Source of the DNA: Bolinopsis microptera
Taxonomy: Eukaryota; Ctenophora; Tentaculata; Lobata; Bolinopsidae
Reading direction: 5' to 3'
Length of the DNA stretch: 64,000 bases
NCBI RefSeq assembly: GCF_026151205.1
Contig: NC_087082.1
Coordinates: 20,761,283 to 20,825,282 of the forward strand
The translations under genes and the position numbers were made by a program. Of the stretch, positions 601 to 62,612 are shown piece after piece. The notes beneath the pieces are model-generated. The model saw only the letters and a list, made by a program, of their open reading frames with translations. It ran no database searches and was not told the DNA's origin. How positions within the stretch are numbered: the stretch's first letter is position 1; each line of letters begins with the position of its first letter.

Positions 601-900
601 GGCACATGAATTGTACTGCCACTGGCGAGGGTATGAATCAACGGAGGGTTACAATGGCCTTCAGACATTTTACCAGGAACATGAAATGCTACGTTCATGT
701 CACTGATGATTATAACAGGTTCAGAGAGAGAAATTAAATCTATACAGTGTTCTGCAGTAATTGGATGATTTTAGCTTATAATTAATTACGGTCAAATTAA
801 TTAGAGAGTTTGTTGATTTTGGGTAGGTTAACTTAAACTAGTTAAACACTTACAAGCTTAGGTAATATCTTTCATTAAAACTATTTTAAACAAATGATAA

Positions 901-34900: not shown

Positions 34901-37900
34901 CTGAGCACGTAGTTAATTTTTATCACGACATCTTTAGCTCTACGAATCCAAACGAGCATGAAATAACCGATTATATTAATTCCAGTAACCTAGATACTAT
35001 TGATCAGGAGAACGCTGACAGGTTAGATAGGCCAATTTCCCTCCTGGAGATGGATAGTATTATCAGTAAATTTAAGAAAAATAAATCTCCAGGGTGGGAC
35101 GGCCTCACTGCTGAATTCTACAAAGTATTCTGGGAGGACATTAAGAATATCCTATTTAACTCCTTTTTAGAGTCGGTTGATAATGGGGTTATGTCACCTT
35201 CACAACGTCTAGGAATTATAACACTTATCCCGAAACCTAAAACCCCCATTGAGTTAAACTATATAAAGAACTGGCGACCAATCACCCTTTTGAATGTAGA
35301 CTATAAGATATTCACTCATATTATAAAAAATAGGATCTTAAGTTCACTTCCAACACTTATTAGTACTAGGTTTCAAAAAGGGAAGAGTACCTGCGATAAT
35401 CTGATCTTAATGTATCTAACCTTAGAACATTACCATGATAACCAAGAGGATACTGGTATGATTATGCAGGTCGACCTCCAACGGGCTTTCGACTCGGTCG
35501 AACATAAGTTTCTTTTCAGTGTCTTGGAAGGTATGGGGTTTGGAAATTATTTAATCAACTTGGTGAGAGTGGCATTTCACGCTGGTATGAGTTACGCTAA
35601 CGTTAACGGACACCTTAGCAGCCCTGTTCACATACTTCGTGGCGTCCATCAGGGGAGCCCCCTTTCCCCAATTCTTTTCCTCCTAGTGTCCCAGGTACTT
35701 AGTAATAAGCTACAGTATAACCCTTATATTAAAGGCCTCAGCATTAATGGTATCGACATACTCATGAGTCTGTTTGCTGATGACACGGATCTGTACCTGG
35801 ATCCCTCCCAGGCTTGCGTAGATGCAGTTATCCTAGAGCTCAACCTGTTCGGTCAGCACTCAGGCTGTAAGCCCAACATCAGTAAAACTAAGTGCATACC
35901 TTTAGGAGCTACCAGAGACAACACTAGTCTTCGAAATTACCTTACCAGTACATACGGGGAAGACATGGTAGCTAACGAGTTTACAGCATTAGGAGTCAAG
36001 TTCGACAACACGTCTAGTGGAGCTGATCTCTGCAAAATGAACTACCACAGTAAACTTAATAACGCCAGCTCCGCTATCAACACCTGGAGTAAGAGAGACT
36101 TAACTCTGATAGGAAAGTGTACAATTATTAAATCTCTTATTCTTTCCCAGTTCACTTACCTTATCATACCACTAGAAACTCCTGATACTAACACCATCAG
36201 TAAAATAGACACTATGATTTTTCACTTCTTGTGGGGTTGTAAGAGGGATAAGTTGAAACGTGATATTGTTACTTCTCCTCGTGAATGTGGGGGTCTAGGT
36301 CTCTTCTATACTAACGATTTTATTATAGGTTTAAAAGTGTCACTTATAGGAAAAGTTATCGATCCTAATTTCCAACATGCCTGGAAAAATATTATCATCA
36401 ATCAGCTTTTACACCCAAATATACCAACTGTGTGTATAGAAAACTGTCTCACATTAAAGAATACTGGTTTTACCTTTAACCTACTTCGCCATTATAAGCT
36501 TTGGAAGTCTATTTCTTCACAGTCAAGTAAGAGTACAGTCAACCACTGTGTGTGGGGAAGCGACGTAATAACGGACATTGGCTCCAAGCTCTGGAACGAT
36601 ATTCTTATTGATAGAAATATCATCTATCTTTCTGATTTCGTTTCAGAGGAAGGTAACCTCTTAAGTTTTCAGCAATTTCTGAGAAAGTGGGGCCAAACAA
36701 GTAGTATAATCTCTTCGACTCAATATGCGAGTATAAAATTGGGAATACGTCGATTTAATAATACCGATACGTTTACAAGTAACATTACATTTATCGATAC
36801 CCAACTTTCACTTCGCTTTTGGGGAGGTAGGAATACCCCCAACTCTAGAGATACTCCTCTCACTATCAAAGGTAGAAACATTAGAGATACCATGTCTAAG
36901 CGTTTAGATCCCAGCACCCTTCCTCCAATGAGGAACTGGAGTGCTAACCTCTCCTTAACGGATATTGATTGGATTAGTATTTTTACGGATATTTTTACTT
37001 CTTTCTCAAATAACTTCAAACTTATTCAGTACCAATATAAGCTCCTTCACCGGATTAGTACTTGTCGGTACATGAGATATAAAATGAAGATTGAAAAAGA
37101 TAGTCCAAATTGCTCGTTATGTAATCACAACCTCGAAACTATCTCTCACATATTTATTGACTGTCCAGCCACAAGCTCTTTCCTACAGGGAGTAAATCTG
37201 TTTATTAGATCGAATATTGACGCAAATTATGACGACCCATATCGCCACTATTTGATTTGCTTAAATCACAGAGATAAAAGTGTTAACTTCATAAATTCGG
37301 TTTGCTGTTGGTTTATTGGAAGGAGTTTCCAGAACAAGGAACCCCTATTCTGGGAGCGATATCTTAAACATCTTAAGCTTTTCTTATTAGGTGAAAAACC
37401 GGATATTATACGGTGCCTTAAAGACGTTATACCTTGATGACCATTTTATACCCGAAGTTCTGGATCGACTATACACTCTTGTTTATTTATTTTCTCGAAA
37501 TTACAGCCGTGCCTTACCTTTACCCTTTATTTCACAAGTTGTAGCCAGTGGAGTTATCTCCACTACTAGTATTGATATAGAGTCACATTTAAAACCAGTA
37601 GTATCTCCCCTTTTTCTCTCCATCTTATGTGCAATTTATTACTCTATATCCACTGACTTTATTCGACGTATTATCTAAAAGAATAAAAAAAATTTTGTGC
37701 GTGTGTTTTTATATTTATTTTGCTACGGCGCATGTGAAACCCCAGGGCATCCAGCACCGGAGAAGCTGAAATGACACTCTCTGAACCCTTGGTGCCGCTC
37801 AGATTTTGCCTCTTGGCTGGTAAGCCGAGTCATGATCGATTAACTCAGCTTCTTCGGTACAACACAGACCGGAGGGTACTATTAGCCGCTTTGCCGGTGG

Positions 37901-40900
37901 TATCCTCCTGGTGTCCTGGGGTTTGGCAGGTTCCTCATTTAAAAAAAATAAAAAAAAAAAAAAAAAAAAAAAAAAAACTTTATTAACTTCTAAAGATAGT
38001 TTATTCAAAGATCGATGTAATAATATAGGTTACTAGTGCCTGTGTAGATACAAGTTACAACGAACATAGTAAACAATAAAATGATAACTATAACATCCTA
38101 AGATTAAATTATTGGAGAACCTATCGCATTTCTATACCTGTAACATCGTTAGAAGTCAATCTCTGAATGAAGAGTTTGGTAGACATCACACCTTTATCAT
38201 CGATTGGAGAGATAAGTGTACGGTACTGCCACTGGTGATCCGATGGAAGACTTTCCCAATTTATTGACCCTCCATCTAGTAGTAATTATTAAACTTTTTC
38301 AGTTTTGATCATTCAAAAAGTATTATCATTCAAAAATTACTAACATATAACTACGAACACAATTACTAACGTTAACTTAAATAAAGCTTACTTACTTCTT
38401 TTCTGCCATGTGATCCTGACGTCGGATAAGTCTCTGGCAGTGAAATAAGTTGTCAAAATAGCTGGTCGTCCCACCGTTGCCAAAACTGGTGTTATGACAA
38501 CTGCTTCACCTAAACGACGAGAAAGTTTACAAATGATATCCCAGAAAAAAGACATCTATAAATATCAGTATTACTCGAATTCCTTTATATTGTATCAATT
38601 ATGATAGTATTCATAATATTATTAATCATGCAAATCAATATATTATTTATTTCGTTATTCGAATCTTACTTTGATTATGGAACACAATATTGCAGGGAAA
38701 TAATCGGAGACCGATCGTGAAAGTGTAGAAAATTAAATTATTGATGGAATTATCGAGTGGGAATCATTTTGAGGGCGTTGTGTCATTTTCCAAAGCATTA
38801 GGTAGAAAAGTTCAAAATAGTGTAGTGCTGTAGGAACACAGAAATACTTGCCGAGCAACGAGAATTTCACTGTAACTGTAAGAGATTCTTGGACTGAATT
38901 CTGAATCCGGACGGAGTAGTCACAAGTACCATGTTGTGAAACTAAATCATCTTTTGAGCCTGCTTCTATCATAGAATCAGAACTGAAAATAATTGAATCA
39001 ATGATTTAATCACCCCTCCTACCCTCCTCCCCCTTTCCTGTGAGATAATTAGGGAGGAATAATGCATCACAACCCCTATTTCATCAGCCTTAAATCAACT
39101 TACGTTAATTGTGTCTGTAAAAACGAAAGTAGGATGGAAGCTATTTTTTTGATTGATAAATAATTTTAATCTTAACTTGTACTTTCTAAAGATGTTCTCA
39201 CCTGCGAATGTGATAAACTTCGGTGAAGATTAACCCATCGGTTGAGATTTTTGAATCTGTCGATTTACTAATAGGGTTGACCTGAGATATCGATAGTTAG
39301 AATTCAGTGTTATTTCTAGAACCTACGATCTTCACGAATGGTAGAACAAATGAAGCATGCCAGAAAATTTGTTTGAAATAATTAATTCTCACTCACAAGA
39401 TCAAGAGAGCAATCCAAATTCCTTGACAGCGGTGCTGAAGGTGCATGAGTTATAAAAGTCACCACAGCTCCTGTATCTGGAGTCAGGACTATTAAATCGA
39501 GGTCGCTGTCTATCCTTATTTCGTTCAGATGACTCATTGGTGTATCAACGATTTGTCCTGGGTTCGAGAGTTTTTTATTCAACAAAACTTTGAGGTTCTG
39601 CGTAAAGGTCATAAACCTTTAACTGGCATGTTTCCACTTGAAAATTCTTTTATATTTAATGAACTAAATTTAAGGGAAGCCTGATTGAGAATTTCTTTCT
39701 TTACCTGTGCTGTACTGGGCCCGGCAATAAAGATTTCCAACAGCTGCTGTGGAGTGAGCAACTATGATTTTCCACTGGACCGTTGTAGTGCCATAAACTT
39801 TCTCCATCATTTTGAAGATGATAACATCATGGTGCTTATTATAGGTAAAACCTTTATTGTTTACAAACTTGCCATCCAACTTCCACCTTCGTGTTTTGAC
39901 ATTTTTAGTAAACATCGTATTATGATTTACCAAGACATTTAATTTGGATAGAAGTGAAATATATAGATATATCATGAAATTCTGGTTACTAGCATGAAAA
40001 CTGGCCACAATTTTTGGTCCATAATTTGTAAATGAGATTATTGTGACTCACAAAATATTTTCCAATCAACTCTTTAGTCTTTAGGCTGTCTAAGCTCGTA
40101 GCATAAACTTACCGCAAATTATTCAAAATAGAATCAGTCATGTTAAATGGTACGGAACAGGTGACTTCTGATTCAGTCCCTGTAATGCCCCACACAGAAT
40201 TGGGATATTGAGTCCCACTGACATTCACTCCAATCAAAATCACTTGGTTGCTCTGTAGAATTCGCTCTGCGATATGTGAGTGATATTCACGGTCCACGGA
40301 TATATAATCGAATGAAAATCTCTATTTTCAGTGAAATAATGTTTATACCATATTGCTGCACTCTGCAAAAACAGAATAGTATATAATTGACAAAATTAAG
40401 CTTACTGCTCGTTGTTTCTGTGTAAAAGGATCTCCAGGCCCCAACTGTAGAGTTGCTTACAATGATGCTGATTACGGAGGTCTTTGGAGAGTTGATAATA
40501 TCCCTACGAGGAAAATATTTGAACAATGTTTGTAGTTAAATTCAAATCGGTTTATTTGTTATTTGATAGATATGGGTTAACAACTACTTCAGTACAGCAA
40601 AACCCGCGGTAAAACAAAAATACCTGCAAGTTTTAGTCAAACACAGAGAGTCATTGTGCTTCCACCAAAAGTGTCCTTCAGCAAACGAGGAGAAGAAATA
40701 AAAAGATTTCAGGTTGACTGTTGCTCCGTTGAAAGCTCTTATCTCATGTTCTGGTGTCAGCAACAAACCTGTTGGTGGATGCTATTACATATATTGAAAC
40801 TTTTGAGATGTTCACACAATCTGCACTACCTAGTCGGTTTTAAAATTTACGGTCACAATAAAAAGTAAACACGCTCACGAACAAAGAGTGCATAAATTTG

Positions 40901-43900
40901 ATCATGCAAATTCATAGCTCACAATTTAAACCGTTCAGATAATTTTCAATAAAATATTCTTTATACTCTTACTTGTCAAATAAATCATTTTTGAAATCGA
41001 TAGTGAATTCAACTGACTCATTTAAATCATTCTACGCCTCGACTGAGTAAAAGTCTAATAACAAAAAAAGGATGCAAAGTCTCTCTGATTTTTAAGATTG
41101 TTTCGAAATTAGAATGAAATATTATAATCTGTTGATTTAGATTACCATCGGTTTCTATTTCAACTTCCGAGTAAAAGTTATACTCTTGACCATGGGCGAA
41201 GACTATGCAAGTGTAAGAAGCAACTTCGTTGGGAGGGTCTAATCGTAAAATTGTTGTTGTTGTACTATTTTGTAAGGTTTCTTTTCTTGTCTCTGCAAAA
41301 AAAAGTTAAAATGTTACATATGATATAATATTGATATCAATACCAAATGCGATATGAACAACTCGGTTTGATTGTTGAGGAAAAGAAGAGGTCTGGTAAT
41401 ACAGGTAGGCCGGTTTAGATTAGCACAATTGACGTTACAGAGAGGTTTTATTTATTACAAATGTGATTATCTTAACCCCACTGATTCATCATTGAAATCA
41501 ATAAAATGACAGTACAGCAGGCTATCGTTTCGATCTTGACTGTGCCATTGGTGCAGTTTCTGTGAAAATCGATAAGGCTGTACGTATTGTAATTAGTTAT
41601 AAAACTCTTATATCGCGATCGTATGGTTAAACTTAACGTTTTTCAGTTTCAGACCTTTCCTACTTAGAGTTAGTAATTCCTGATTATTACTAAAATCTGC
41701 CGAGATTTACTGAACTCCAACTACAAATATTGGTGATTTAAGTATACTTGAAACGAAAAATTGACTTAGTTATTTTGAAAATCATTTTTCTCCGCGTTTC
41801 ATGCAATTTGATCACTTTTGGCGGAAAAAAATATTTTGAATTTTCGAAATTTTTCGAAGTCTCGAAAAAAAAATGTAAGTGAAAAATTTTCAAATTTTTT
41901 CTAAAAACTACTTTTCTCCGTGTTTTAAGCTATTCCGATCATTTTTAGCCAATAAAAAATTTTTAAGAATTTTGCTAATTGGTCAATTGATAATTATCCA
42001 ATTAACTTATTATCTGACGTAAAAATTGTTAGAACAAAAGTTTTTTTTCCTGATAATATGAACACACTCGATTGATTCGCAACCTTTTACGATGTTCACA
42101 ACTAAAAATATTCGACAAACAAGAAAGGTGGTAAAAAGTGGTAAAGTGGCAAAAAGTGGCCTTAAGCCACGTGGAAAAGTTTGGAAAAGTTGGTCAGCCA
42201 TAAAGGGCACCTAATGGGACTCAAAAACGTCAAAAATCCTCTGAAAGCTTCGTGTGTCAGCAGATCGATTTTTTCAGACGGATTTCCCTGTACTATAAGG
42301 CCAAGGGGGCACCAAGCTCAAAGTAGTGTTCCATAGAGTTACACAAAAACTTGGAATTTAACCTTCAAATATAGTATTTTGGTGTGACCAAGCAACTGTC
42401 AATGTGTCGGTAGGAAAGATCACAGTGCACTTCAATACTGCTGGGTCTCCTGTTCTAACATAATCATTGGTTGTACTGAAATAAGAAGTTGAATTCAATG
42501 GAAATTTAGGGAAATTGGAGTAGGTCAAAATTTAATACAACAATATGATATTGATTATGATTGGTCAAATGGAGATTTCAGTTTAAGAACGTATTATTTA
42601 ATTCTACGCATTCTTTCATTTGCGCAATATTAAATAAGATTTTTGAACTACATTATTAAACGTACCGAACTGTGAAGGTTTTGAGAGCCACCAAGGTATC
42701 ATCATATTGATCTTTTTCTCCTACTGAAATCCTACATGTGAATAGTTGATCGCCTAACAAAGTCACGTCAGCTAAAAGGATCATAGTAGACTCCTTCATC
42801 CCATCCTTAAGTGCTCCATCGCTGATAAATTGAAAGAGTCGGTAATCCATGACAACATCTACATTTTGCAACAAATTATAAAACAGCAATATATCATATA
42901 TCTGTATTAGGATCTCAAATATTCTATCATTTCAGTAATCGGTATATTCCAGTAATATAAAAGATTGACATATATGGCGTGCAGCTCTATAAAGAAAAAT
43001 ATAAAATATTACCTGACAGTCAAGTCAGAAATGTCTGAATCATGAGAGAAAAGTTTTCCTTTGTTGTCCACCCACTGAATATGTATCAAATTGGCAGCTG
43101 ATCCTTTTATTGAACAAGTCAACGTTGATGCAGTACCTGCTAGCACGTCATAGCTTTTCACCATTATCTCTGAAATTAATACATCCAATATAAATAAAAA
43201 TTTGCAGTTATTTAAAATACTACAATTTATGATTCATAATCCACGATGAATGTTTAACTGCAAGTGCAAGATTCAAATTCGTCCTTAAATCAATAACTGT
43301 ATTGAAAAATGAGTAATGACACTGTTTGGCATTTAAGGGGGGGTTCACCCTGATTTTTTTGTGAAACTTGGTTTCGAGATAGCAGTTGACCAACAAACTA
43401 AGACCAGTGACCGAACTTTTGAGGGGGTCCCGGACTCCAACCGCCAAACGGTGCCCGCGGGGCAACCACGCCCATATTTGGTCCAAATTAGGCCCAATTT
43501 AGCCAAATACCCTAAACATGCCCAAAAAATTTGGCAGCCTAATTCTAAATTTAGCAGTGCAAATTTTGGAATTTGGCCGCTAAATTTTTTAAAGGCCTAA
43601 CTCAAAATTCTGTCCCAAAACTTAAGGTCATGAGACAATTCTACGTTGACTCTGAAAATTTCATGAAAAAATATTGAAACCCTATTGAGTTCTATTGTTT
43701 TGAGCGAAGTCAGTTTTGCAAATATCGCGAACTGAGATATGGGGAATTTTGTTCATTTTTTGCGATTATTTGAACACAGAATCCACAGTTAGGTAGATAC
43801 TGAGCTGATAATCATAGATAATGTGTAGTATAGGCTTACCTTCCATATAAAGTTGGTTTCATTCAAAAATATTGATATTTGACCAATTTATGGGCCAAAA

Positions 43901-46900
43901 TCGATCAAATTTGGTGCGTATGCCCAAATATGGTCATATGGTTTTTGGCTCATAACTCAGTCATTTTTTGTCTAATCTTGATGAAAATTCATATACAAGT
44001 TCATGGTACCACTAGCTACAAGTTGAGCACTTAAAATCTGGATTTTGGTCATGTTCAGGGTATTTGGCTAAATTGGGCCTAATTTGGACCAAATATGGGC
44101 GTGGCTGCCCCGCGGGCACCGTTTGGCGGTTGGGGTCCGGGACCCCCTCAAAAGTTCGGTCACTGGTCCTAAATTGTTGGTCAACTGCTATCTCGAAACC
44201 AAGTTTCACAAAAAAATGAGGGTGAACCCCCCCCCCCCCCCCCCCTTAAAGAACATACCATAAACGTTAAGATTGACGGTGGTATCCGAGTGGCTGGAAT
44301 CAGGTAAAGAACCGGAAGTTACTCTGCAAGTGTAAGCAGTATCTTCATTGACAAGAGTTCCGTTTACAGCAAGAGTTGATGTCTATGTCCCTCCGGAGAA
44401 GCTTCCTTGGACAGGGGTGAACTTTTCAGCTGGAACTGGTCCTGTACTAGTCCGCCAAGTTGCTGTTGCTGTTTCAATAATTCCGATGATAACACAGGAT
44501 ATTGTTGTTGCAGAGCCTTTCTTTACTTCTTTGTTTACCGATTCAACGTCTGAAGTAAGTTTTGGTAATGGTACATTGACAAATTTTACAATTTATAACA
44601 CTCGTGTGATAATTATATTTCGTTGTCATGAAAATGATTTAAATTGAAAGTTGATTGTAATATATAAAATCGTATAAATACAAAAAAACTGCATTGCAAA
44701 AGAACTTCAGTTGGAGTTTAAAGAACATACCATAAACGTTAAGATTGACAGTGGTATCCGAGTTGCTGGAATCAGGTAAAGATCCGGAAGTTATTCTGCA
44801 AGTGTATGCAGTATCTTCATTGACAAGAGTTCCGTCAACAGCAAGAGTTGATGTCTGTGTCCCTCCGGAGAAGCTTCCTTGGACAGGGGTGAACTTTTCA
44901 GCTGGAACTGGTCCTGTACTAGTCCGCCAAGTTACTGTTGCTGTTTCAATAATTCCGATGATAACACAGGATATTGTTGTTGCAGAGCCTTTCTTTACTT
45001 CTTTGTTTACCGATTCAATGTCTGAAGTAAGTTTTGGTAATGGTACATTGACAAATTTTACAATTTATAACACTCGTGTGATAATTATATTTCGTCGTCA
45101 TGAAAATGATTTAAATCGAAATTTGATTGTAATATATAAAACCGTATAAAAACAAAAAAACTGCATTGCAAAAGAACTTCAGTTGGAGTTTAAAGAACAT
45201 ACCATAAACGTTAAGATTGACAGTGGTATCCGAGTGGCTGGAATCAGGTAAAGATCCGGAAGTTATTCTGCAAGTGTAGGCAGTATCTTCATTGACAAGA
45301 GTTCCGTTAACAGCAAGAGTTGATGTCTGTGTCCCTCCGGAGAAGCTTCCTTGGACAGGGGTGAACTTTTCAGCTGGAACTGGTCCTGTACTAGTCCGCC
45401 AAGTTACTGTTGCTGTTTCAATAATTCCGATGATAACACAGGATATTGTTGTTGCAGAGCCTTTCTTTACTTCTTTGTTTACCGATTCAACGTCTGAAGT
45501 AAGTTTTGGTAATGGTACATTGACAAATTTTACAATTTATAACACTCGTGTGATAATTATATTTCGTCGTCATGAAAATGATTTAAATTGAAAGTTGATT
45601 GTAATATATAAAATCGTATAAAAACAAAAAACTGCATTGCAAAAGAACTTCGGTTGGAGTTTAAAGAACATACCATAAACGTTAAGATTGACAGTGGTAT
45701 CCGAGTGGCTGGAATCAGGTAAAGAACCGGAAGTTATTCTGCAAGTGTAGGCAGTATCTTCATTGACAAGAGTTCCGTCAACAGAAAGAGTTGATGTCTG
45801 TGTCCCTCCGGAGAAGCTTCCTTGGACAGGGGTGAACTTTTCAGCTGGAACTGGTCCTGTACTAGTCCGCCAAGTTACTGTTGCTGTTTCAATAATTCCG
45901 ATGATAACACAGGATATTGTTGTTGCAGAGCCTTTCTTTACTTCTTTGTTTACCGATTCAACGTCTGAAGTAAGTTTTGGTAATGGTACATTGACAAATT
46001 TTACAATTTATAACACTCGTGTGATAATTATATTTCGTCGTCATGAAAATGATTTAAATCGAAATTTGATTGTAATATATAAAACCGTATAAAAACAAAA
46101 AAACTGCATTGCAAAAGAACTTCAGTTGGAGTTTAAAGAACATACCATAAACGTTAAGATTGACAGTGGTATCCGAGTGGCTGGAATCAGGTAAATATCC
46201 GGAAGTTATTCTGCAAGTGTAGGCAGTATCTTCATTGACAAGAGTTCCGTTAACAGCAAGAGTTGATGTCTGTGTCCCTCCGGAGAAGCTTCCTTGGACA
46301 GGGGTGAACTTTTCAGCTGGAACTGGTCCTGTACTAGTCCGCCAAGTTACTGTTGCTGTTTCAATAATTCCGATGATAACACAGGATATTGTTGTTGCAG
46401 AGCCTTTCTTTACTTCTTTGTTTACCGATTCAACGTCTGAAGTAAGTTTTGGTAATGGTACATTGACAAATTTTACAATTTATAACACTCGTGTGATAAT
46501 TATATTTCGTCGTCATGAAAATGATTTAAATTGAAAGTTGATTGTAATATATAAAATCGTATAAAAACAAAAAAACTGCATTGCAAAAGAACTTCGGTTG
46601 GAGTTTAAAGAACATACCATAAACGTTAAGATTGACAGTGGTATCCGAGTGGCTGGAATCAGGTAAAGAACCGGAAGTTATTCTGCAAGAGTAGGCAGTA
46701 TCTTCATTGACAAGAGTTCCGTCAACAGAAAGAGTTGATGTCTGTGTCCCTCCGGAGAAGCTTCCTTGGACAGGGGTGAACTTTTCAGCTGGAACTGGTC
46801 CTGTACTAGTCCGCCAAGTTACTGTTGCTGTTTCAATAATTCCGATGATAACACAGGATATTGTTGTTGCAGAGCCTTTCTTTACTTCTTTGTTTACCGA

Positions 46901-49900
46901 TTCAACGTCTGAAGTAAGTTTTGGTAATGGTACATTGACAAATTTTACAATTTATAACACTCGTGTGATAATTATATTTCGTCGTCATGAAAATGATTTA
47001 AATTGAAAGTTGATTGTAATATATAAAATCGTATAAATACAAATAAACTGCATTGCAAAAGAACTTCAGTTGGAGTTTAAAGAACATACCATAAACGTTA
47101 AGATTGACAGTGGTATCCGAGTTGCTGGAATCAGGTAAAGATCCAGAAGTTATTCTGCAAGTGTAGGCAGTATCTTCATTGACAAGAGTTCCGTCAACAG
47201 AAAGAGTTGATGTCTGTGTCCCTCCGGAGAAGCTTCCTTGGACAGGGGTGAAACTTTTCAGCTGGAACTGGTCCTGTACTAGTCCGCCAAGTTACTGTTG
47301 CTGTTTCAATAATTCCGATGATAACACAGGATATTGTTGTTGCAGAGCCTTTCTTTACTTCTTTGTTTACCGATTCAACGTCTGAAGTAAGTTTTGGTAA
47401 TGGTACATTGACAAATTTTACAATTTATAACACTCGTGTGATAATTATATTTCGTCGTCATGAAAATGATTAAATTGAAAGTTGATTGTAATATATAAAA
47501 TCGTATAAAAAGAAAAAAAACTGCATTGCAAAAGAACTTCAGTTGGAGTTTAAAGAACATACCATAAACGTTAAGATTGACAGTGGTATCCGAGTGGCTG
47601 GAATCAGGTAAAGATCCGGAAGTTATTCTGCAAGTGTAGGCAGTATCTTCATTGACAAGAGTTCCGTCAACAGAAAGAGTTGATGTCTGTGTCCCTCCGG
47701 AGAAGCTTCCTTGGACAGGGGTGAACTTTTCAGCTGGAACTGGTCCTGTACTAGTCCGCCAATTTACTGTTGCTGTTTCAATAATTCCGATGATAACACA
47801 GGATTATTGTTTGTTGCAGAGCCTTTCTTTACTTCTTTGTTTACCCGATTCAACGTCTGAAGTAAGTTTTGGTAATGGTACATTGACAAATTTTACATTT
47901 ATAACACACTGTGATAATTATATTTCGTCGTCATGAAAATGATTTAAATTGAAAGTTGATTGTAATATATAAAATCGTATATAAAAACAAAAAAACTGCA
48001 TTGCAAAAAAGAACTTCAGTTGGAGTTTAAAGAACATACCATAAACGTTAAGATTGACAGTGGTATCCGAGTGGCTGGAATCAGGTAAAGATCCGGAAGT
48101 TACTCTGCAAGTGTAGGCAGTATCTTCATTGACAAGAGTTCCGTCAACAGAAAGAGTTGATGTCTGTGTCCCTCCGGAGAAGCTTCCCTTGGACAGGGGT
48201 GAACTTTTCAGCTGGAACTGGTCCTGTACTAGTCCGCCAAGTTACTGTTGCTGTTTCAATAATTCCGATGATAATACAGGATATTGTTGTTGCAGAGCCT
48301 TTCTTTTATTCTTTGTTTACCGATTTCAACGTCTGAAGTAAGTTTTGGTAATGGTACATTGACAAATTTTACAATTTATAACACTCGTGTGATAATTATA
48401 TTTCGCCGTCATGAAAATGATTTAAATTGAAAGTTGATTGTAATATATAAAATCGTATAAAAACAAAAAAAACTGCATTGCAAAAGAACTTCAGTTGGAG
48501 TTTAAAAGAACATTCCATAAACGTTAAGATTGACAGTGGTATCCGAGTGGCTGGAATCAGGTAAAGATCCGGAGTTATTCTGCAAGTGTAGCAGTATCTT
48601 CATTGACAAGAGTTCCGTCAACAGCAAGAGTTGATGTCTGTGTCCCTCCGGAGAAGCTTCCTTGGACAGGGGTGAACTTTTCAGCTGGAACTGGTCCTGT
48701 ACTAGTCCGCCAAGTTACTGTTGCTGTTCAATAATTCCGATGATAACACAGGATATTGTTGTTGCAGACCCTTTCTTTACTTCTATGTTTACCGATTCCA
48801 ATGTCTGAAGTAAGTTTTGGGTAATGGTACATTGACAAATTTTACAATTTATAACACTCGTGTGATAATTATATTTCGTCGTCATGAAAATGATTTAAAT
48901 TGAAAGTTGATTGTAATATATAAAATCGTATAAAAAGAAAAAACTGCATTGCAAAAGAACTTCAGTTGGAGTTTAAAGAACATACCATAAACGTTAAGAT
49001 TGACAGTGGTATCCGAGTGGCTGGAATCAGGTAAAGATCCGGAAGTTATTCTGCAAGTGTAGGCAGTATCTTCATTGACAAGAGTTCCGTCAACAGCAAG
49101 AGTTGATGTCTGTGTCCCTCCGGAGAAGCTTCCTTGGACAGGGTGAACTTTTTCAGCTGGAACTGGTCCTGTACTAGTCCGCCAAGTTACTGTTGCCTGT
49201 TTCAATAATTCCGATGATAATACAGGATATTGTTGTTGCAGAGCCTTTCTTTACTTCTTTGTTTACCGATTCAACGTCTGAAGTAAGTTTTGGTAATGGT
49301 ACATTGACAAATTTTTACAATTGATAACACTCGTGTGATAATTATATTTCGCCGTCATGAAAATGATTTAAATTGAAAGTTGATTGTAATATATAAAATC
49401 GTATAAAAACAAAAAAAACTGCATTGCAAAAGAACTTCAGTTTGGAGTTTAAAGAACATACCATAAACGTTAAGATTGACAGTGGTATCCGAGTGGCTGG
49501 AAATCAGGTAAAGATCCGGAAGTTATTCTGCAAGTGTAGGCAGTATCTTCATTGACAAGAGTTCCGTCAACAGCAAGAGTTGATGTCTGTGTCCCTCCGG
49601 AGAAGCTTCTTGGACAGGGGTGAACTTTTCAGCTGGAAACTGGTCCTGTACTGTCCGCCAAGTTACTGTTGCTGTTCAATAATTCCGATGATAACACAGG
49701 ATATTGTTGTTGCAGACCCTTTCTTTACTTCTATGTTTACCGATTCAATGTCTGAAGTAAGTTTTGGTAATGGTACATTGACAAATTTTACAATTTATAA
49801 CACTCGTGTGATAATTATATTTCGTCGTCCATGAAAATGATTTAAATTGAAAGTTGATTGTAATTATATAAAATCGTATAAAAACAAAAAAACTACATTG

Positions 49901-52900
49901 CAAAAGAACTTCAGTTGGAGTTTAAAGAACATACCATAAACGTTAAGAATTGACAGTGGTATCCGAGTGGCTGGAATCAGGTAAATATCCGGAAGTTATT
50001 CTGCAAGTGTAGGCAGTATCTTCATTGACAAAAGTTCCGTCAACAGCAAGAGTTGATGTCTGTGTCCCTCCGGAGAAGCTTCCTTGGACATGGGTGAACT
50101 TTTCAGCTGGAACTGGTCCTGTACTAGTCCGCCAAGTTACTGTTGCTGTTTCAATAATTCCGATGATAACACAGGATATTGTTGTTGCAGAGCCTTTCTT
50201 TACTTCTTTGTTTACCGATTCAACGTCTGAGTAAGTTTTGGTAATGGTACATTGACAAATTTTACAATTTATAACACTCGTGTGATAATTATATTTCGTC
50301 GTCATGAAAATGATTTAAATTGAAAGTTGATTGTAATATATAAAATCGTTATAAAAACAAAAAAAACTGCATTGCAAAAGAACTTCAGTTGGAGTTTAAA
50401 GAACATACCATAAACGTTAAGATTGACAGTGTATCCGAGTGGCTGAATCAGGTAAAGTCCGGATGTTATTCTGCAAGTGTAGGCAGTATCTCATTGACAA
50501 AAGTTCCGTCAACAGCAAGAGTTGATGTCTGTGTCCCTCCGGAGAAGCTTCCTTGGACATGGGGTGAACTTTCAGCTGAAACCTGTCCTGTACTAGTTCG
50601 CCAAGGTTACTGTGCTGTGGTCAATAATTCCGATATGATAACACAGGATATTGTTGTTGCAGAGCCATTCTTTACTTCTTTGTTTACCGATTCAACGTCA
50701 GAAGTAAGTTTGGGTATGTGGTACTTGACAAATTTTACAATTTATGAACACTCGTGTGCATAAGTTTATATTATTGGTCGTCGTCATGAAAATGATTTAA
50801 ATTGAAGTTTGATTGTAATATATAAATATCGTATAAAAACAAAAAAAAACTGCATTGCAAAAGAACTTCATTGGAGGTTTAAAGAACATACCATAATCGT
50901 TAAGATTGACAGTGGTATCCGAGTGGCTGGAATCAGGTAAAGATCCGGAAGTTATTCTGCAAGTGTAGGCAGTATCTTCATTGACAAAGAGTTCCGTCTA
51001 CAGCAGAGTTGATGTCTGTGTCCCTCCGGAGAAAGCTTCCTTGGACCAGGGATGAACTTTTCAGCTGGAACTGGTCCTGTACTAGTCCCGCCAAGTTACT
51101 GTTGCTGTTTCAATAATTCCGATGATAACACAGGATATTGTTGTTGCAGAGCCTTTCTTTACTTCTTTGTTTACCGATTCAACGTCTGAAGTAAGTTTTG
51201 GTAATGGTACATTGACAAATTTTACAATTTATACACTCGTGTGATAATTATATTTCGTCGTCATGAAAATGATTTAAATTGAAAGTTGATTGTAATATAT
51301 AAAATCGTAATAAAAACAAAAAAAACTGCATTGCAAAAGAACTTCAGTTGGAGTTTAAAGAACATAACCATAAACGTTAAGATTGACATTGGTATCCGAG
51401 TGGCTGGAATCAGGTAAAGATCCGGAAGTTATTCTGCAAGTGTAGGCAGTATCCTTCATTGACAAGAGTTCCGTCTACAGCAAGAGTTGATGTCTGTGTC
51501 CCTCCGGAGAAGCGTCCTTGGACAGGGGTGAACTTTTCAGCTGGAACTGGTCCTGTACTAGTCCGCCAAGTTACTGTTGCTGTTTCAATAATTCCGATGA
51601 TACACAGGATATTGTTGTTTGCAGAGCCTTTCTTCACTTCTTTGTTTACCGATTTCAACATCTGAAGTAAGTTTTGGTAATGGTACATTGGACAAATTTT
51701 ACAATTTATAACACTCGGTGTGAGAATTATAATTTCGTCTTCATCATAATGTTTTAAATTGAAAGTTGATTGTATATATATAATCGTATAAAAACAAAAA
51801 AACTGCATTGCAAAAGAACTTCATTTGGAGTTTAAAGAACATACCATAAACGTTAAGATTGACAGTGGTATCCGAGGTGGCTGGAATCAGGTAAAGATCC
51901 GGAAGTTATTCTGCAAGTGTAGGCAGTATCTTCATTGACAAGAGTTCCGTCTACAGCAAGAGTTGATGTCTGTGTCCCTCCGGAGAAGCTTCCTTGGACA
52001 GGGATGAACTTTTCAGGCTGGAACTGGTCCTGTACTAGTCCGCCAAGTTACTGTTGCTGTTTCAATAATTCCGATGATAACTCAGGATATTGTTGTTGCA
52101 GAGCCTTTCTTTACTTCTTTGTTTACGAATCAACGTCTGAAGTAAGTTTTGGTAATGGTACATTGACAAATTTTACAATATATAAACACTCGTGTGATAA
52201 TTATATTTCGTCGTCCATGAAAATGATTTAAATTGAAAGTTGATTGTAATAGATATAATCGTATAAAAAACAAAAAAAACTGCATTGCAAAAGAACTTCA
52301 GTTGGAGTTTAAAGAACATACCATAAACGTTAAGATTGACAGTGGTATCCGAGTGGCTGGAATCAGGTAAAGATCCGGAAGTTATTCTGCAAGTGTAGGC
52401 AGTATCTTCATTGACAAGAGTTCCGTCTACAGCAAGAGTTGATGTCTGTGTCCCTCCGGAGAAGCTTCCTTGGACAGGGGTGAACTTTTCAGCTGGAACT
52501 GGTCCTGTACTAGTCCGCCAAGTTACTGTTGCTGTTTCAATAATTCCATGATAAACAGGATATTGTTGTTGCAGGAGCCTTTCTTCACTTCTTTGTTACC
52601 GATTCAACAGTCTGAAGTAAGTTTTGGTAATGGTACATTGACAAATTTGACAATTTATAACACTCGTGTGATAATTATATTTCGTCTTCATCATAAGATT
52701 TAAATTGAAAGTTGATTGTAATATTTAAAATCGTATAAAAACAAAAATACTGCATTGCAAAAGAACTTCATTTGGAGTTTAAAGAACATACCATAAACGT
52801 TAAGATTGACAGTGGTATCTGAGTGGCTGGAATCAGGTAAAGATCCGAAGTTATTCTGCAAGTGTAGGCAGTATCTTCATTGACAAGAGTTCCGTCTACA

Positions 52901-55900
52901 GCAAGAGTTGATGTCTGTGTCCCTCCGGAGAAGCTTCCTTGGACATGGGTGAACTTTTCAGCTGGAACTGGTCCTGTACTAGTCCGGCCAAGTTACTGTT
53001 GCTGTTTCATATTCCGATGATAACACAGGATATTGTTGTTGCAGAGCCTTTCTTTACTTCTTTGTTTACCGATTCAACGTCTGAAGTAAGTTTTGGTAAT
53101 GGTACATTTAAAAATTGTGCAATTATAATGCTCGTGTGATAATTGTATTTTGTCTTCATGATAATGATTTAAATTGAAAGTTGATTGTAATATATACAAT
53201 CGTATAAAAACAAAAAAACTGCATTGCAAAAGAACTTCAGTTGGAGTTTAAAGAACATACCATAAACGTTAAGATTGACGGTGGTATCCGAGTGGCTGGA
53301 ATCAGGTAAAGATCCGGAAGTTATTCTGCAAGTGTAGGCAGTATCTTCATTGACCAGAGTTTCGTCTACAGCAAGAGTTGATGTCTGTGTCCCTCCGGAG
53401 AAGCTTCCTTGGACAGGGGTGAACTTTTCAGCTGGAACTGGTCCCTGTACTAGTCTGCCAAGTTTACTGTTACTGTTTCAGTTATTCCGATGATAACACA
53501 GGATATTGTTGTTGTGGCGCCTTTCTTTTCTTCTTTGTTTACCGATTCAACATCTGAAGTAAGTTTTGGTAATGGTACATTTACAAATTTTACAATTTAT
53601 GACACTCGTGTGATAATTGTATTTCGTCGTAATCATATTGATTTAAATTGAAAGTTGATTGTAATATATAAAATCGTATAAATACAAAAAAACCTACATT
53701 GCAAAAGAACTTCAATTGGAGTTTAAAAAACATACCATAAACGTTAAGATTGACGGTGGTATCCGAGTGGCTGGAATCAGGTAAAGATCCGGAAGTTATT
53801 CTGCAAGTGTAAGCAGTATCTTCATTGACAAGAGTTCCGTCTACAGCAAGAGTTGATGTCTGTGTCCCTCCGGAGAAGCTTCCTTGGACAGAGGATGAAC
53901 TTTTCAGCTGGAACTGGTCCTGTACTAGTCCGCCAAGTTACTGTTGCTGTTTCAGTAATTCCGATGATAACACAGGATATTGTTGTTGCGGAGCCTTTCT
54001 TTACTTCTTTGTTTACCGATTCAACGTCTGAAGTAAGTTTTCAGTTTTGGTAATGGTACATTTACAAATTGTTCAATTTATAACACTAACTTGATATAAA
54101 CAGGTTTTTGTTCTGACAATGAGTTAAATTGAAAGTTGATTGTAATATATAAAATCGTATAAAAACAAAAAAACTGCATTGCAAAAGAACTTCAGTTGGA
54201 GTTTAAAGAACATACCATAAACGTTAAGATTGACAGTGGTATCCGAGTGGCTAGAATCAGGTAAAGAACCGGAAGTTACTCTGCAAGTGTACGCAGTATT
54301 TTCATTGACAAGAGTTCCGTCAACAGCAAGAGTTGATGTCTGTTTCCCTCCGGAGAAGCTTCCTTGGACAGGGGTGAACTTTTCAGCTGGAACTGGTCCC
54401 GTACTAGTCTGCCAAGTTACTGTTGCTGTTTCAATAATTCCGATGATAACACAGGATATTGTTGTTGTGGAGCCTTTCTTTACTTCTTTGTTAACTGATT
54501 CAACGTCTGAAGTAAGTTTTGGTAAAGGTTCATTTACAAATTGTGCAATTTATATCGTTCGCATGATTTAAACATTGCATTTATTTATTTACGTAAATTG
54601 AAATTGCCTTTATTTCAAGTTTGTTTGAAACATTTTTTATCCTTTAGAAGTAGCTACCCACTTAAAAAATATTATAAAAACAATATCTTATTTGAAAAGT
54701 TTGTTTTGAAATTGATGAATAGGAGCAACTTAAAATGATAACAAGGGGTCGTTCACATATTACGTAATCAGTTGAGGGGGGGGGGGGGGGGGGGGGTTTC
54801 CGAATGATTACGCTAGTGTAATTTTGACAAAATAGCTATGTGTAAAACTGATTACGGAGGGGGGGGGGGGTAAAAATGTTCCAAAAAATGATTACGTAAT
54901 ATGTGAACGACCCCCAATTGACAGTGTTTTGACGCCATCAACCGAAGGCAAAGTCATCTACACCGCTAAAATCACCCTTGTAACTTTACCATAAAATGTA
55001 CATGTTATGAGTATGACGGGTGTATTTCATGAGCATTTCATATTGGAGAGAGGGTAAAAACATTCATTTATGAATTAATTTTGTTCATCAATATCTTATG
55101 AACACAATATTTACAAAATCTTTTGTGTCATAATGTTTAGAATCGAGGGTAAATAATTGATAGAAATTGGTCTATGATATAAAATTGTACCTAGACTGAT
55201 GAGCTCTATATCTCTTCCGATGATAACTATCTCATATACCCAGACATAGTTATAAGCACTCCCTGTAATAACCACTGTGTCTCCAGTCTTACAATCAGAA
55301 GGAGCGTTGTCAGGTACTGTTCCATCCTCAGAGTACACTGACACGGGCCACCAAGTGGGATAGTGAGTGTAGATGAAACCACTTATACAGGTACACACAT
55401 CTCTCGAGCATGTGTGCTTGTTATACGGGTAATAGTGATAATTAGAGTCCACGTAATGGTGCACCTCCTCTACACAGTAGGTCTTTCCTAGCTTAGCTTT
55501 AAACCAGGGGTCAGAGTCAGAATATGATGTACGAGCGCGTGTGTATAAATTCTTGTCTATGCCATTAGTTGCCACATAACTACTAGAGCTATAGTACGTT
55601 GATGACATAGAGACGGATACAGGTGTTATCTCGTTATCTACTGCAGGTAAAATGTCACCTGAAATATAACCACGATAGATTATATAGTGTTTTAGCACTT
55701 AGTAATAGTACTTTCAGTTTCTATAATTATAGCTATAATTTATTTGATTGTCACATATAGCCTATTAATTCTGGTCAATATCATATGCAAACAATCAGTA
55801 GAAATGAGTTAGAACAGTAAATAATGATTTCTTTTGTAAGGTGGTGCAATGCAACATTTACCTTGAATGGGTAAACACAAAAGAGCCGTTAAGATAATTG

Positions 55901-55913
55901 TTGTTATCTTCAT
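31924..55913 (-). CDS. Giant secreted Ig-superfamily protein: galactose-binding-like domain, 22 tandem Ig cassettes, further Ig domains
   Basis: Exon 1 (55862-55913) encodes the signal peptide MKITTIILTALLCLPIQG. Exon 2 (55191-55658) encodes a discoidin/fucolectin-like domain (ATNGID, TRARTSY, PWFKAKLGK). Twenty-two Ig exons follow (54506 down to 44259). Split and divergent Ig halves follow at 43013-43169, 42666-42858, 42363-42475, 41146-41292, 40624-40768, 40406-40503, 40113-40266 and 39705-39886. Less certain exons lie near 39396-39610, 39205-39290, 38830-38985, 38395-38505, 38140-38285, 33020-33205, 32610-32700, 32236-32335 and 31924-32105. The sum is about 3,100 aa. Most junctions are in phase; the join 43013/42858 is not, and I could not resolve the one before 39610. 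No transmembrane helix or anchor is visible before the stop at 31924, so secretion is inferred. Adhesion or recognition is likely from the domains only. A LINE and a TTAA element lie in its introns. Confidence 0.8.
33291..37976 (+). mobile_element. LINE (non-LTR retrotransposon, L1/Tx1-like), apparently intact at the 3' end
   Basis: The element ends in an A-rich tail (about 37940-37976). A direct repeat reading AACTTTATTAA flanks it at about 33277-33290 and 37976-37987, which is a target-site duplication. It has about 110 bp of leader, one long ORF and about 500 bp of 3' UTR. No separate ORF1 is seen, so it may be 5'-truncated or of a one-ORF type. It sits in an intron of the Ig gene in opposite orientation. 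Confidence 0.88.
33400..37437 (+). CDS. LINE ORF2: APE endonuclease and reverse transcriptase
   Basis: The ORF is uninterrupted for 1,345 codons. The natural start may be the Met at 33664 (MSENDSVGA), since the preceding about 88 residues look like leader. The apurinic-type endonuclease follows: FNCNGL, QESHS, NVYCPN, LAGDWNT, RLDFFLID, SDHSYISLSL, all with the expected catalytic Asn, Glu, Asp and His. A Lys-rich linker follows, then reverse transcriptase with GWDGLTAEF, NWRPITLLNVDYKI, QVDLQRAFDSV, GVHQGSPLSP and the catalytic FADDTDLYL. The C-terminus has a CCHC-type zinc knuckle (CSLCNHNLETISHIFIDC). The protein nicks target DNA and copies its own RNA in place. The overall plan fits the L1/Tx1 group. 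All catalytic motifs are intact, so it may be recently active. Confidence 0.93.
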   Translation: MFKRIKYIYYMGYSSVISAISCLMIHTSTSNKMCDCVCFYHFVFCHCTITTTSFFAILGETVLDSILALLVTNLVKITLERRLISEFTMSENDSVGASLRVGSFNCNGLGNPEKRRSVLGWLLAKPEDIIMVQESHSVVETEDFWRTIWGGDIYFNHGTSKSTGVTFLVKPNSNIKICSHRIITQGRVSLLEIEKDSIKYCLVNVYCPNSNDTYVVENLFLETLGRTRDDYRILAGDWNTILNNNLDKYGGNSSHSNTKRQQYLNQVTADHGISDIFRLSRGNERVYTHVNKQHKTQTRLDFFLIDDSLVNYPVCNADISHGFRSDHSYISLSLQGSPIKRGIGYWKLNNSHLNNESFLSNVREIINETADSNFDSYSGLWDVIKMKIKDFAIRFGKKEKKEKVAKKKKISSDIEEVKKITDFMQKDDLRKKLYDLESQLDGIIKAEVNGAMTRSRIQWTEEGERSTKYFFGLEKSRAKKKSITKLINSDQSVLRTQQDISEHVVNFYHDIFSSTNPNEHEITDYINSSNLDTIDQENADRLDRPISLLEMDSIISKFKKNKSPGWDGLTAEFYKVFWEDIKNILFNSFLESVDNGVMSPSQRLGIITLIPKPKTPIELNYIKNWRPITLLNVDYKIFTHIIKNRILSSLPTLISTRFQKGKSTCDNLILMYLTLEHYHDNQEDTGMIMQVDLQRAFDSVEHKFLFSVLEGMGFGNYLINLVRVAFHAGMSYANVNGHLSSPVHILRGVHQGSPLSPILFLLVSQVLSNKLQYNPYIKGLSINGIDILMSLFADDTDLYLDPSQACVDAVILELNLFGQHSGCKPNISKTKCIPLGATRDNTSLRNYLTSTYGEDMVANEFTALGVKFDNTSSGADLCKMNYHSKLNNASSAINTWSKRDLTLIGKCTIIKSLILSQFTYLIIPLETPDTNTISKIDTMIFHFLWGCKRDKLKRDIVTSPRECGGLGLFYTNDFIIGLKVSLIGKVIDPNFQHAWKNIIINQLLHPNIPTVCIENCLTLKNTGFTFNLLRHYKLWKSISSQSSKSTVNHCVWGSDVITDIGSKLWNDILIDRNIIYLSDFVSEEGNLLSFQQFLRKWGQTSSIISSTQYASIKLGIRRFNNTDTFTSNITFIDTQLSLRFWGGRNTPNSRDTPLTIKGRNIRDTMSKRLDPSTLPPMRNWSANLSLTDIDWISIFTDIFTSFSNNFKLIQYQYKLLHRISTCRYMRYKMKIEKDSPNCSLCNHNLETISHIFIDCPATSSFLQGVNLFIRSNIDANYDDPYRHYLICLNHRDKSVNFINSVCCWFIGRSFQNKEPLFWERYLKHLKLFLLGEKPDIIRCLKDVIP
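43333..44249. mobile_element. TTAA-flanked element with about 200-bp inverted arms, inserted beside the last Ig cassette
   Basis: TTAA at 43333-43336 and 44246-44249 bounds an element whose ends are TTAAGGGGGGGTTCACCCT and its complement. The arms (about 43337-43530 and 44048-44245) contain CGCCAAACGGTGCCCGCGGG and match closely. The middle has no ORF. The right TTAA lies 10 bp past the donor of cassette 1, where the other 21 cassettes read GGAGTTTAAAGAACATACC. Those are natural empty sites that show the insertion at TTAA. Confidence 0.83.
44259..54506 (-). repeat. Array of 22 tandem Ig-domain exon cassettes, period about 472 bp
   Basis: Exon ends (donor side) are at 44259, 44731, 45203, 45674, 46146, 46618, 47090, 47563, 48040, 48516, 48986, 49462, 49935, 50409, 50892, 51369, 51845, 52322, 52792, 53261, 53736 and 54216. 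An intact exon is 291 nt and the intron is about 180 bp. All are phase 1-1, so any number can be skipped without loss of frame. Each encodes one Ig domain of 97 residues: TTISCVIIG (first Cys), VTWRTSTG (core Trp), FSGGTQTSTLAVDG and EDTAYTCRIT (Tyr-x-Cys). Introns repeat as well as exons. Copies 1-6 and 22 keep exactly 291 nt. Copies 7-21 carry scattered single-base indels in exons and introns alike. Copy 10 has a broken donor and copy 14 a broken acceptor. Confidence 0.93.
54745..54914. mobile_element. 170-bp MITE, Harbinger-like ends
   Basis: Inverted ends GGGGTCGTTCACATATTACG match for about 26 bp, flanked by CAA on both sides (3-bp target duplication). The interior has two long G runs and further GATTACG repeats. 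A GGG start and 3-bp duplication fit PIF/Harbinger MITEs. It lies in the intron between the galactose-binding exon and the first Ig cassette. Confidence 0.75.
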
Positions 55914-58280: not shown

Positions 58281-58873
58281 GCCAGTGGCGAAATCTATAA
58301 GTATACTATACTTTAAACTTGACGAAATCTCCTTGGCAACGCGGGGACAAGCTCACGCTATAAGTATACTATAATTATTCATAACTTGGGTTGTGATTGA
58401 TATTGTGATTGTTATTTTGAAAACTTGTCGTTTAGAGAATCCAAATACTTACAAAGTAGTCGTTATTGTCAAATAAAATCCTTAATTTCTACAGTACAAC
58501 AGAGCTTACTAAATGATGAAGAGAAATTAAAACATAACTTTTTTAAACAAAGCTTTCGACTAGTACTGTAGCGGGTTTCTAGTAAATTATATTCGATAGC
58601 AATATCTGGCCAGCAAATTAACAATCGAAATTTTATCGTTTATTATGTCGAAAAAGTCGCAATCATGTCTGAAATTTGGTGGCCCCCGTAAAAACTTCAC
58701 TTTGCTAAGTAAAAAGGAAACTGAAGTAATAATTATCAGGACAACAATAGTATAAATCGATAAAAAGTCTCATACAGTCCGTAGAAAATTGTAAAAACCA
58801 TTTAAGTATAACTATTAACAAAATTTAATTAAAAATGAAATAAGCTGTAATATTCAATGGCGTAAGTCATGCG
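58281..58873. repeat. Right arm of the long inverted repeat (partner 1-600)
   Basis: Reverse complement of 1-600, about 58 kb apart. It includes the shared short coding-like stretch (YFKLDEISLATRG, plus strand here). It lacks the about 55-bp insert of the left copy. The exact outer end cannot be judged because the left copy is cut by the window edge. Confidence 0.85.
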
Positions 58874-59305
58874 CTGAGTGTCCAGAAAAATTAGCTAATA
58901 TTGAAATCAAACAGCACCGAAAAAGAAATCATGCCGTAGCTTCCTTGTTACTTGTCTACGATTTCCTAAGGCTAAGGGCCCGCATGTTTTCCAATCTTGA
59001 ACTCCTGTGTTACTTGGGTAGCACAAACGGTGTTTGAATTACGCCACTGATACGATTACGGTTCTACGGGTTTATTAACTTTTTTCCATGTATTAAATCG
59101 ATGATAACCAAGGGACGTAATCGGTTGTAACAAAGCCGTTTTAAAGGCTCAGAAAAACCAATAACAGCCAAATTATTACCGAAATACGGTACATAGATAA
59201 AATTCACATTTTAATCGGTGGTATCGAAATAACAAACCCAGTCTCGGAAGGAACGACACAGAATTAAGTCCCAATCTCATTTCACTAGAGAACAAGTTGG
59301 TTCCT
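58874..59305. other. Non-coding stretch
   Basis: 3' flank of the minus-strand gene that ends at 59306. I see no coding sequence or clear repeat. Confidence 0.4.
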
Positions 59306-62509: not shown

Positions 62510-62534
62510 CTGGTGGGGGTTTAGGGCTTACAGA

Positions 62535-62612
62535 GGGGGAAAGGAATGAGAAGGGGGAAGGGAAGGGGAGAGGGGAAGGGAAGGGGAAGGGGGTAGGGGA
62601 GGGGAAGGGGGT
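62535..62612. repeat. Purine-only G/A tract
   Basis: About 75 bp of GGGAAGGG-type units, almost free of pyrimidines on the plus strand. It can form triplex or G-quadruplex structures. Confidence 0.85.

Follow-up and report, generated by a model that had tools for sequence, protein, structure and literature searches.

The kringle IV type 2 (KIV-2) repeat of LPA, the gene of human apolipoprotein(a), is a coding variable-number tandem repeat (VNTR) built of exon cassettes, and each of its units holds exons together with their introns in frame. Here, we describe an array of the same type, with exon plus intron in tandem and exons of symmetric phase, that consists of 22 immunoglobulin (Ig) cassettes in a gene of the ctenophore Bolinopsis microptera. 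We call this gene T and its sister genes, all on contig C11, A, B and C; the stretch analyzed, referred to as the window, is C11:20761283-20825282, the last 64 kb of that contig. The repeated domain of LPA is a kringle and not an Ig domain, its unit measures 5.6 kb against 0.47 kb here, and LPA is one gene, whereas the cassettes occur at many loci. Allelic copy-number variation is established for LPA, whereas our comparison is of loci within one assembly. We know of no diversifying head beside the LPA repeat.

Like the C11 family, the Alr allorecognition genes of Hydractinia form a complex in a non-bilaterian animal and encode extracellular proteins of Ig type. Alr products are transmembrane proteins with a polymorphic N-terminal Ig-like domain; in contrast, the Ig cassettes described here are uniform, and no anchor was found. 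Long Ig runs serve as spacers in titin- and obscurin-like arrays, as they may here, but gene T differs from these in its signal peptide, concerted near-identity and lectin-like head. For oyster sperm bindin, the available text of PMC5712786 describes positively selected F-type lectin repeats in one to five copies, with recombination in an intron. The likeness lies in a lectin-type domain with positively selected sites, a variable repeat number and intron recombination; however, bindin repeats the lectin itself, whereas here the conserved Ig stalk is repeated, the lectin-like part is single and the fucose motif is absent.

On balance and with moderate confidence, we favor the reading that T and its sisters encode secreted or surface recognition proteins, composed of a variable lectin-like head, near-identical Ig domains in a long stalk, and a C-terminal Ig region that is conserved. 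If these proteins recognize anything, the head is probably the part that does so, with the Ig array serving as a stalk of variable length.

The Ig array and the gene that carries it

Tandem Repeats Finder reports a repeat at 44246-54554 of the window (period 472, 21.7 copies, 95% matches, score 18384), and delimitation on the minus strand yields 22 exons, the first at 54506-54216 and the last at 44549-44259, with a 291-nucleotide (nt) consensus followed by a 181-nt intron. The two agree with the original prediction, made from the sequence alone, whose count and coordinates (44259..54506) were exact, and the array is beyond chance. That prediction also placed the array in one gene, which is correct, but it did not mention the signal-peptide, lectin-like head and C-terminal split-Ig exons of that gene. 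The features of gene T are as follows.

55862..55913, minus strand: exon 1, with the start codon, signal peptide MKITTIILTALLCLPIQ and a phase-1 donor (from the sequence; the same peptide occurs in gene B)
55191..55658, minus strand: exon 2, delimited by splice sites, a head domain of ~156 amino acids (aa) with phase-1 exit, fast-evolving and F5/8-C- or F-type-lectin-like at borderline significance
44259..54506, minus strand: Ig cassette array of 22 units, each a 291-nt phase 1-1 exon and a ~181-nt intron, period 472
46909..54027, minus strand: frameshift-bearing units 2-16, with 45 exon and 35 intron insertion or deletion (indel) events in 15 units
44259..44549, minus strand: cassette 22 at the array end, with an in-frame TAG by the substitution CAG>TAG
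43333..44249, plus strand: 909-bp insertion in the intron after cassette 22, TTAA-flanked, with ~190-bp terminal inverted repeats
38124..43170, minus strand: C-terminal split-Ig exons d1a, d1b, d2a, d2b, d3a, d3b, d4, d7, d5 and d6 (cores; borders partly approximate)
33288..37973, plus strand: long interspersed nuclear element (LINE) in an intron, with an open reading frame (ORF) at 33664-37434 of 1,257 aa encoding endonuclease and reverse transcriptase
31927..33202, minus strand: further C-terminal coding blocks at 33202-33026, 32717-32595, 32341-32231 and 32100-31927, recovered in tblastn searches that used peptides of P0008 and gene B as queries (splicing approximate)

The cassette exon has phase 1 on entry and exit, as walked in the intact sister gene B, and any number of cassettes therefore keeps the frame. 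This bears out the predicted symmetry of the exons. Two further predictions, that exon and intron are copied jointly and that cassette number can change without harm to the frame, are likewise upheld: the 472-bp unit is tandem in T, the four genes carry 5, 22, 39 and 51 cassettes, and in A, B and C every Ig match at an expectation value (E) of 0.05 is full length, with 95 of 95 cassettes open, stop-free and bounded by AG and GT sites. The predicted difference of only a few bases between copies applies to units 17-21 (97.9-99.8% identical) and not to the array as a whole, in which identity over 21 whole units averages 95.6% and ranges from 88.1 to 99.8%. Units 17 and 19, and likewise 18 and 20, are 99.8% identical, and by this measure units 17-18 and 19-20 represent a recent two-unit (dimer) duplication.

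A single cassette matches the profiles I-set (E = 1.9e-4), Ig_3 (2.2e-4) and C1-set (5.7e-4), each below its own cut-off, and P0007, a related protein with 12 cassettes, passes the cut-offs (Ig_3, 4e-56; I-set, 1.5e-54; C1-set, 4.7e-48). All 95 cassettes of A, B and C keep Cys19, Trp32 and Cys75, and the T cassettes contain the stretch D-T-A-Y-T-C, which fits the D-x-A-Y-x-C of the Ig core. By profile match and Cys-Trp-Cys core, the cassettes are thus assigned to the Ig superfamily (I-set/C1-set-like). The best 50 structural matches listed for the predicted cassette structure name no Ig chain, a result compatible with an Ig fold.

Outside the array, a 100-bp segment over exon 1 (55967-55868) is 99-100% identical among A, B, C and T, and the split-Ig exons of T share 94-100% aa identity with those of A, B and C. 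The NCBI model P0008 includes eight of the ten split-Ig exons and lacks d5 and d6. It has no strongly hydrophobic segment (19-residue hydropathy maximum, 1.28). A hydrophobic ORF in B (maximum hydropathy 2.4) was considered as a transmembrane anchor and dropped, as A and C do not keep it as a single exon; in P0005, this head is accompanied by a hydrophobic segment at the C-terminus, read by eye. The LINE is not in gene B, where the two sides have 13 bp in common. For the TTAA-flanked element, presumably of piggyBac type, an empty site is present in A and B, and none was found in C at ≤2 mismatches.

The gene family and selection on its exons

The four C11 genes share one exon order: signal peptide, lectin-like head exon, Ig array and conserved split-Ig C-terminus. 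The three sisters of T, and arrays of the same cassette family on other contigs, in which units are mostly ~400 bp, are the following.

Gene B, head at 17.355 Mb of C11, plus strand: 5 cassettes
Gene C, 17.413 Mb of C11, plus strand: 39 cassettes in blocks of 11, 16 and 12
Gene A, 20.746 Mb of C11, minus strand: 51 cassettes in seven blocks
Array D, on C2: 25 cassettes, with one GC donor
Array E, on C4: 19 cassettes inside the stretch read, with one odd donor
Array F, on C4: 14 full and 11 partial matches

The C11 stretches read contain no run of N, and stretch F contains 100 N. The genome searched comprises 264,652,675 bases in 232 contigs of one assembly. Three whole-genome cassette searches, in which the best 150 of 774, 768 and 789 candidates were scored, give by hand tally at least ~280 related cassette places on C2, C4, C7, C11 and C13. 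Head matches at E ≤ 0.01 number at least 147 (best 150 of 206 candidates scored), and among those listed, nine are full length at 73-100% identity, all on C11 within 3.5 Mb, T included. Copy-number variation is evident between loci (5, 22, 39 and 51 cassettes), not between individuals. NCBI protein records cover parts of the family, and in these, judged from sequence, heads and stalks are mixed: P0005 has the signal peptide and the same head followed by sushi domains, P0007 a pentraxin-like N-terminus followed by 12 cassettes, and P0001 a lectin-like N-terminus followed by cassettes. The head relative L045 (C13:3945801-3946400; 58% identity) equals the N-terminus of P0005 and carries the NCBI name SVEP1-like.

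Searching other species with residues 1-170 of P0005 returned only two Bolinopsis records among 229 candidates, a result weakened by length limits. In Mnemiopsis leidyi, ACHWQZ_G019314 (P0003) resembles the family in three cassette-like Ig domains, recognized by eye, with a best local alignment of 69% identity; it differs in its other neighboring domains and has no long array in its 935-aa model. We found no literature on such Ig arrays in ctenophores within a coverage that leaves out most subscription journals, and in the available text of a paper on Mnemiopsis immune genes, immunoglobulin receives no more than a brief mention (PMC11797021).

The ratio (omega) of nonsynonymous (dN) to synonymous (dS) divergence within arrays is 0.25 in A, 0.33 in B, 0.40 in C, 0.39 in D, 0.54 in E, 0.30 in F and 0.47 in T (six intact copies). 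We compared site models M1a and M2a in our own implementation, with relative branch lengths fixed from M0. For 15 of the 43 distinct A cassettes, omega is 0.23 and a positive class adds nothing (likelihood ratio test statistic [LRT] of 0). In A, C and D, most cassettes have their closest relative within their own locus (47 of 51, 33 of 39 and 25 of 25, respectively, ties being counted as own). Mean identities within A (96.9%), between A and C (97.0%) and between A and T (96.5%) are about equal, and homogenization therefore spans the C11 genes and not single arrays alone; A is 87-89% identical to the C2 and C4 arrays. Comparison of the final cassettes of A, B and C with one another gives 98.6-99.7% identity, against a mean of only 94.3-95.6% with their own arrays, as expected if exchange spares array edges. 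By these comparisons, the array is homogenized and under purifying selection.

The head behaves differently in the same site test, for which the cassettes served as the control. Over nine heads, M2a is favored over M1a with an LRT of 111.4 (97.7 after gap trimming), omega2 is 6.7 for 32% of sites, and 36 of 167 columns have a posterior above 0.9 for the positive class. Among eight heads, dN (0.145) exceeds dS (0.104), whereas the C-terminal exon cores have a dS of 0.015 and a dN of 0.009 over 478 codons. Per 100 bp, the head exon is 81-97% identical between genes, against 94-100% for the preceding signal-peptide exon and intron. A broader statement, that the head is less conserved than its non-coding flanks, was not kept: it is true of the preceding exon and intron and false of the intron after the head. 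Overall, the head diverges faster than the C-terminus, and its amino acid changes fit a class of positively selected sites, with the caveats weighed below.

Matches of the head to Pfam F5_F8_type_C_2 all fall below the cut-off (T, E = 0.081; C, 0.002 and 0.047; L017, 0.02), and five more distant heads gave none. Eight heads gave PDB profile matches to fucolectin-type chains (E = 0.027-0.061), which were absent from the listing obtained with a wider, 19-head alignment.

Integrity of gene T and the paired blocks of C11

Only six of the 22 exons in the deposited T array (copies 1 and 17-21) are intact 291-nt open exons. Copies 2-16 are frameshifted or disrupted by indels, with a net length of 294 in copies 8 and 15. 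The 45 exon indels of units 2-16 fall in 4,365 bp (10.3 per kb), close to the rate in their introns (12.9 per kb), and the 1,746 exon bp of units 1 and 17-21 contain none. The sister arrays, sampled as 80 units (44 of A and 36 of C, excluding units >480 bp and the last cassettes of A and C), likewise contain no exon indel in 23,280 bp. Insertions outnumber deletions by 53 to 27 over exons and introns of units 2-16, and of the 89 alignment columns with gaps, 74 are confined to a single T copy. Raw PacBio reads are expected to show more insertions than deletions, and Illumina polishing often fails within long repeats. Because the indels have sharp borders, are mostly private and strike exons at about the intron rate, units 2-16 are probably an unpolished long-read patch and not the product of decay, a judgment drawn from the assembled sequence and not from reads.

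That T is a decaying pseudogene with real frameshifts is improbable. Decay would account for exon indels at an intron-like rate, for the TAG in copy 22 and for the LINE and TTAA element within T introns. It fits poorly with indels that end abruptly, with their private distribution and insertion excess, and with a signal peptide, head and C-terminal exon cores that are all open. The distribution of the indels led us to rate a pseudogene array as less likely than sequencing error. The manner of assembly also speaks against decay: the available text of PMC10232365 describes a wtdbg assembly with gaps filled by TGS-Gapcloser and pilon polishing with Illumina reads, and reports 13 chromosome-scale scaffolds and a k-mer genome size of ~254 Mb. 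It names PacBio continuous long read (CLR) and high-fidelity (HiFi) libraries jointly for three species, of which we read Bolinopsis to be the CLR species, and mentions Iso-Seq libraries for its species as a group (PMC10232365). Frameshifts in long-read repeat arrays can thus be assembly error and call for caution.

The upstream flank of T (window 57400-63900) matches C11:17310239-17353431 in collinear, inverted pieces at 94-99%, up to the query end, which lies 100 bp from the contig end. The same flank has further matches, mostly at 88-97%, in the B-C and A-T intergenic regions. Left of A, a stretch is 91-95% identical to 17.466-17.469 Mb in opposite orientation, and outside their arrays A and C align collinearly, in pieces that are 92-99% identical. 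Window positions 1-3174 have a 99% identical counterpart past gene B, at C11:17372653-17375825, whose orientation is direct even though the gene itself is inverted. From the flank, the stretch left of A, the window start and the A-C collinearity, T-A is read as an inverted counterpart of B-C with local rearrangements, either a segmental duplication or a second haplotype. By gene order, upstream flank and 3'-flank structure, T pairs with B and A with C. C-terminal identity is 97.4-98.5% in all six gene pairs, highest for T-A, and so near-equal that the C-terminal halves do not decide between duplication and haplotype. For two short probes further left, the only matches were to dispersed repeats and to copies at other places on C11 and on C5.

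We consider it unlikely that the T-A block (C11:20.68-20.825 Mb, to the contig end) is a second haplotype of B-C (17.31-17.47 Mb) that was scaffolded apart: T and B are just 88.9% identical upstream of the head, and the C-terminal half of T is closest to A, not B. If it were, the alleles of one animal would have 5 and 22 Ig cassettes at one gene and 39 and 51 at the other, with heads that differ at ~9-11% of bases beside a C-terminal half 98% alike. Such a locus would be a hypervariable ctenophore recognition locus, polymorphic in both tip and stalk length.

Exon-like stretches of another gene, seen by eye at window 59293-62510 on the minus strand, lie in a region that was copied along with the Ig gene unit and recurs at 17.31 Mb as well as in both intergenic regions. 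Elsewhere in the window, a 39-bp tandem repeat at 3796-6447 (~68 copies, 91% matches) reads by eye as a 13-aa Glu/Arg-rich coiled-coil-like repeat. The 22-bp unit TAAGTGACGTCACGTCTGGTAT recurs in 6.7 perfect copies at 12417-12563 and contains the core TGACGTCA, which we take to be cyclic AMP response element (CRE)-like. At 15881-17575, 10/20-bp repeats of AGCGCTGGCC type form two clusters that face each other, with outer units that are reverse complements. On the minus strand, a 554-aa ORF at 18396-20057, presumably VPS13-like, has a weak Ricin_B_lectin match below cut-off (E = 2.3e-5), and a 339-aa ORF at 21248-22264 has a THAP domain (E = 2.2e-13) and is possibly derived from a DNA transposon. 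The stretch 18013-20565 has a 98% copy on C3, and a ~2.1-kb repeat at 26664-28756 has many 94-98% copies on other chromosomes. Rfam at gathering scores gave 0 matches.

A proposed role in recognition and its alternatives

In the mechanism that we propose, the stalk would grow and shrink by unequal exchange of exon-plus-intron cassettes, exchange and gene conversion would keep the cassettes alike, and purifying selection would keep each one a working Ig domain, while diversifying selection would act on the head. The head would then bind a ligand, probably a glycan, the Ig stalk would set reach or valency, and the role may be recognition of microbes or other foreign surfaces.

Several observations weigh against this. 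Pairwise omega for the nine heads is 1.34, with a bootstrap range (0.97-1.85) that does not put it significantly above 1, and 1.39 (0.86-2.39) without columns within two of a gap; for the A, B, C and T heads alone it is 1.38 (0.87-2.39), or 1.25 (0.63-2.92) trimmed, and for trimmed heads without T it is 1.29 (0.80-2.19). Since these ranges reach below 1, pairwise omega alone does not establish positive selection. The head LRT is larger on three random trees and a star tree (127-178), and gene conversion or recombination may therefore inflate the test. Head dS (0.06-0.11) is well above the C-terminal value of 0.015, so part of the head divergence would reflect age or a lack of conversion. The intron after the head is 82-98% identical and thus no better conserved than the head, and one upstream segment of T falls to 73-75% identity. 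The family of the head is uncertain, with no database match at its own cut-off and an AlphaFold model with a predicted local distance difference test (pLDDT) score of 33. F-type fucose and cation motifs, as defined in the available text of PMC5712786 (fucose motif H-x24-R-x-D/E-x4-R/K, spacing relaxed), occur in none of the nine heads. On the side of the cassettes, counting identical copies once gives omega values of 0.26 in A, 0.38 in C (up to 0.69), 0.39 in D (up to 0.81) and 0.82 in E (0.55-1.26), and the nearest relative lies in another locus for 12 of 22 T and all five B cassettes. Finally, T as deposited is not an intact gene, and no membrane anchor was found in P0008 or in the gene B stretch compared with A and C.

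The missing anchor in P0008 would also suit a structural or mechanical protein, an elastic or adhesive fiber of mesoglea, mucus or colloblast glue in which cassette number sets length and nothing is recognized. We regard such a fiber as a minority possibility. Homogenized, identical domains suit a repetitive fiber, and a weak link is offered by the PF13927 Ig family, which the available text of PMC6278862 gives as common to Mnemiopsis colloblast candidate genes and a toxin database. However, a fiber leaves unexplained both the strong positive-selection class of the head and the presence of nine full-length heads at least 73% identical, T included, within 3.5 Mb of C11. A gamete-recognition protein comparable with oyster sperm bindin is suggested by a lectin-like domain with signs of diversifying selection that accompanies a variable repeat number, as happens within the species in bindin; here, though, the Ig stalk and not the lectin is repeated, and we hold this to be distinctly improbable.

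The original prediction suggested that array-length polymorphism could serve self/non-self or adhesion recognition. The array is not supported as a self/non-self device because its cassettes are homogenized and constrained (omega of 0.23 in A, with no positive class) and the diversity lies in a separate head exon. An allorecognition system at this locus is very unlikely. It could draw on the diversified head and on array lengths that differ between T-A and B-C, possible haplotypes, but the cassettes are the constrained, uniform part. The available text of a Mnemiopsis review relates that a single animal can be made by grafting together pieces from several ctenophores (PMC8228598); such compatibility counts against a strong allorecognition barrier in a related lobate.

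The reading that we favor thus remains one in which the head recognizes foreign surfaces, and the sequence suggests that one of the oldest animal lineages has a family of possible recognition proteins that has gone unstudied. A fast-evolving head on homogenized stalks of 5-51 Ig domains, repeated along one chromosome, is a concrete candidate for a recognition repertoire. It would also be a natural experiment in which selection, within one gene, treats one exon as diversity and its neighbor exons as a uniform spacer.

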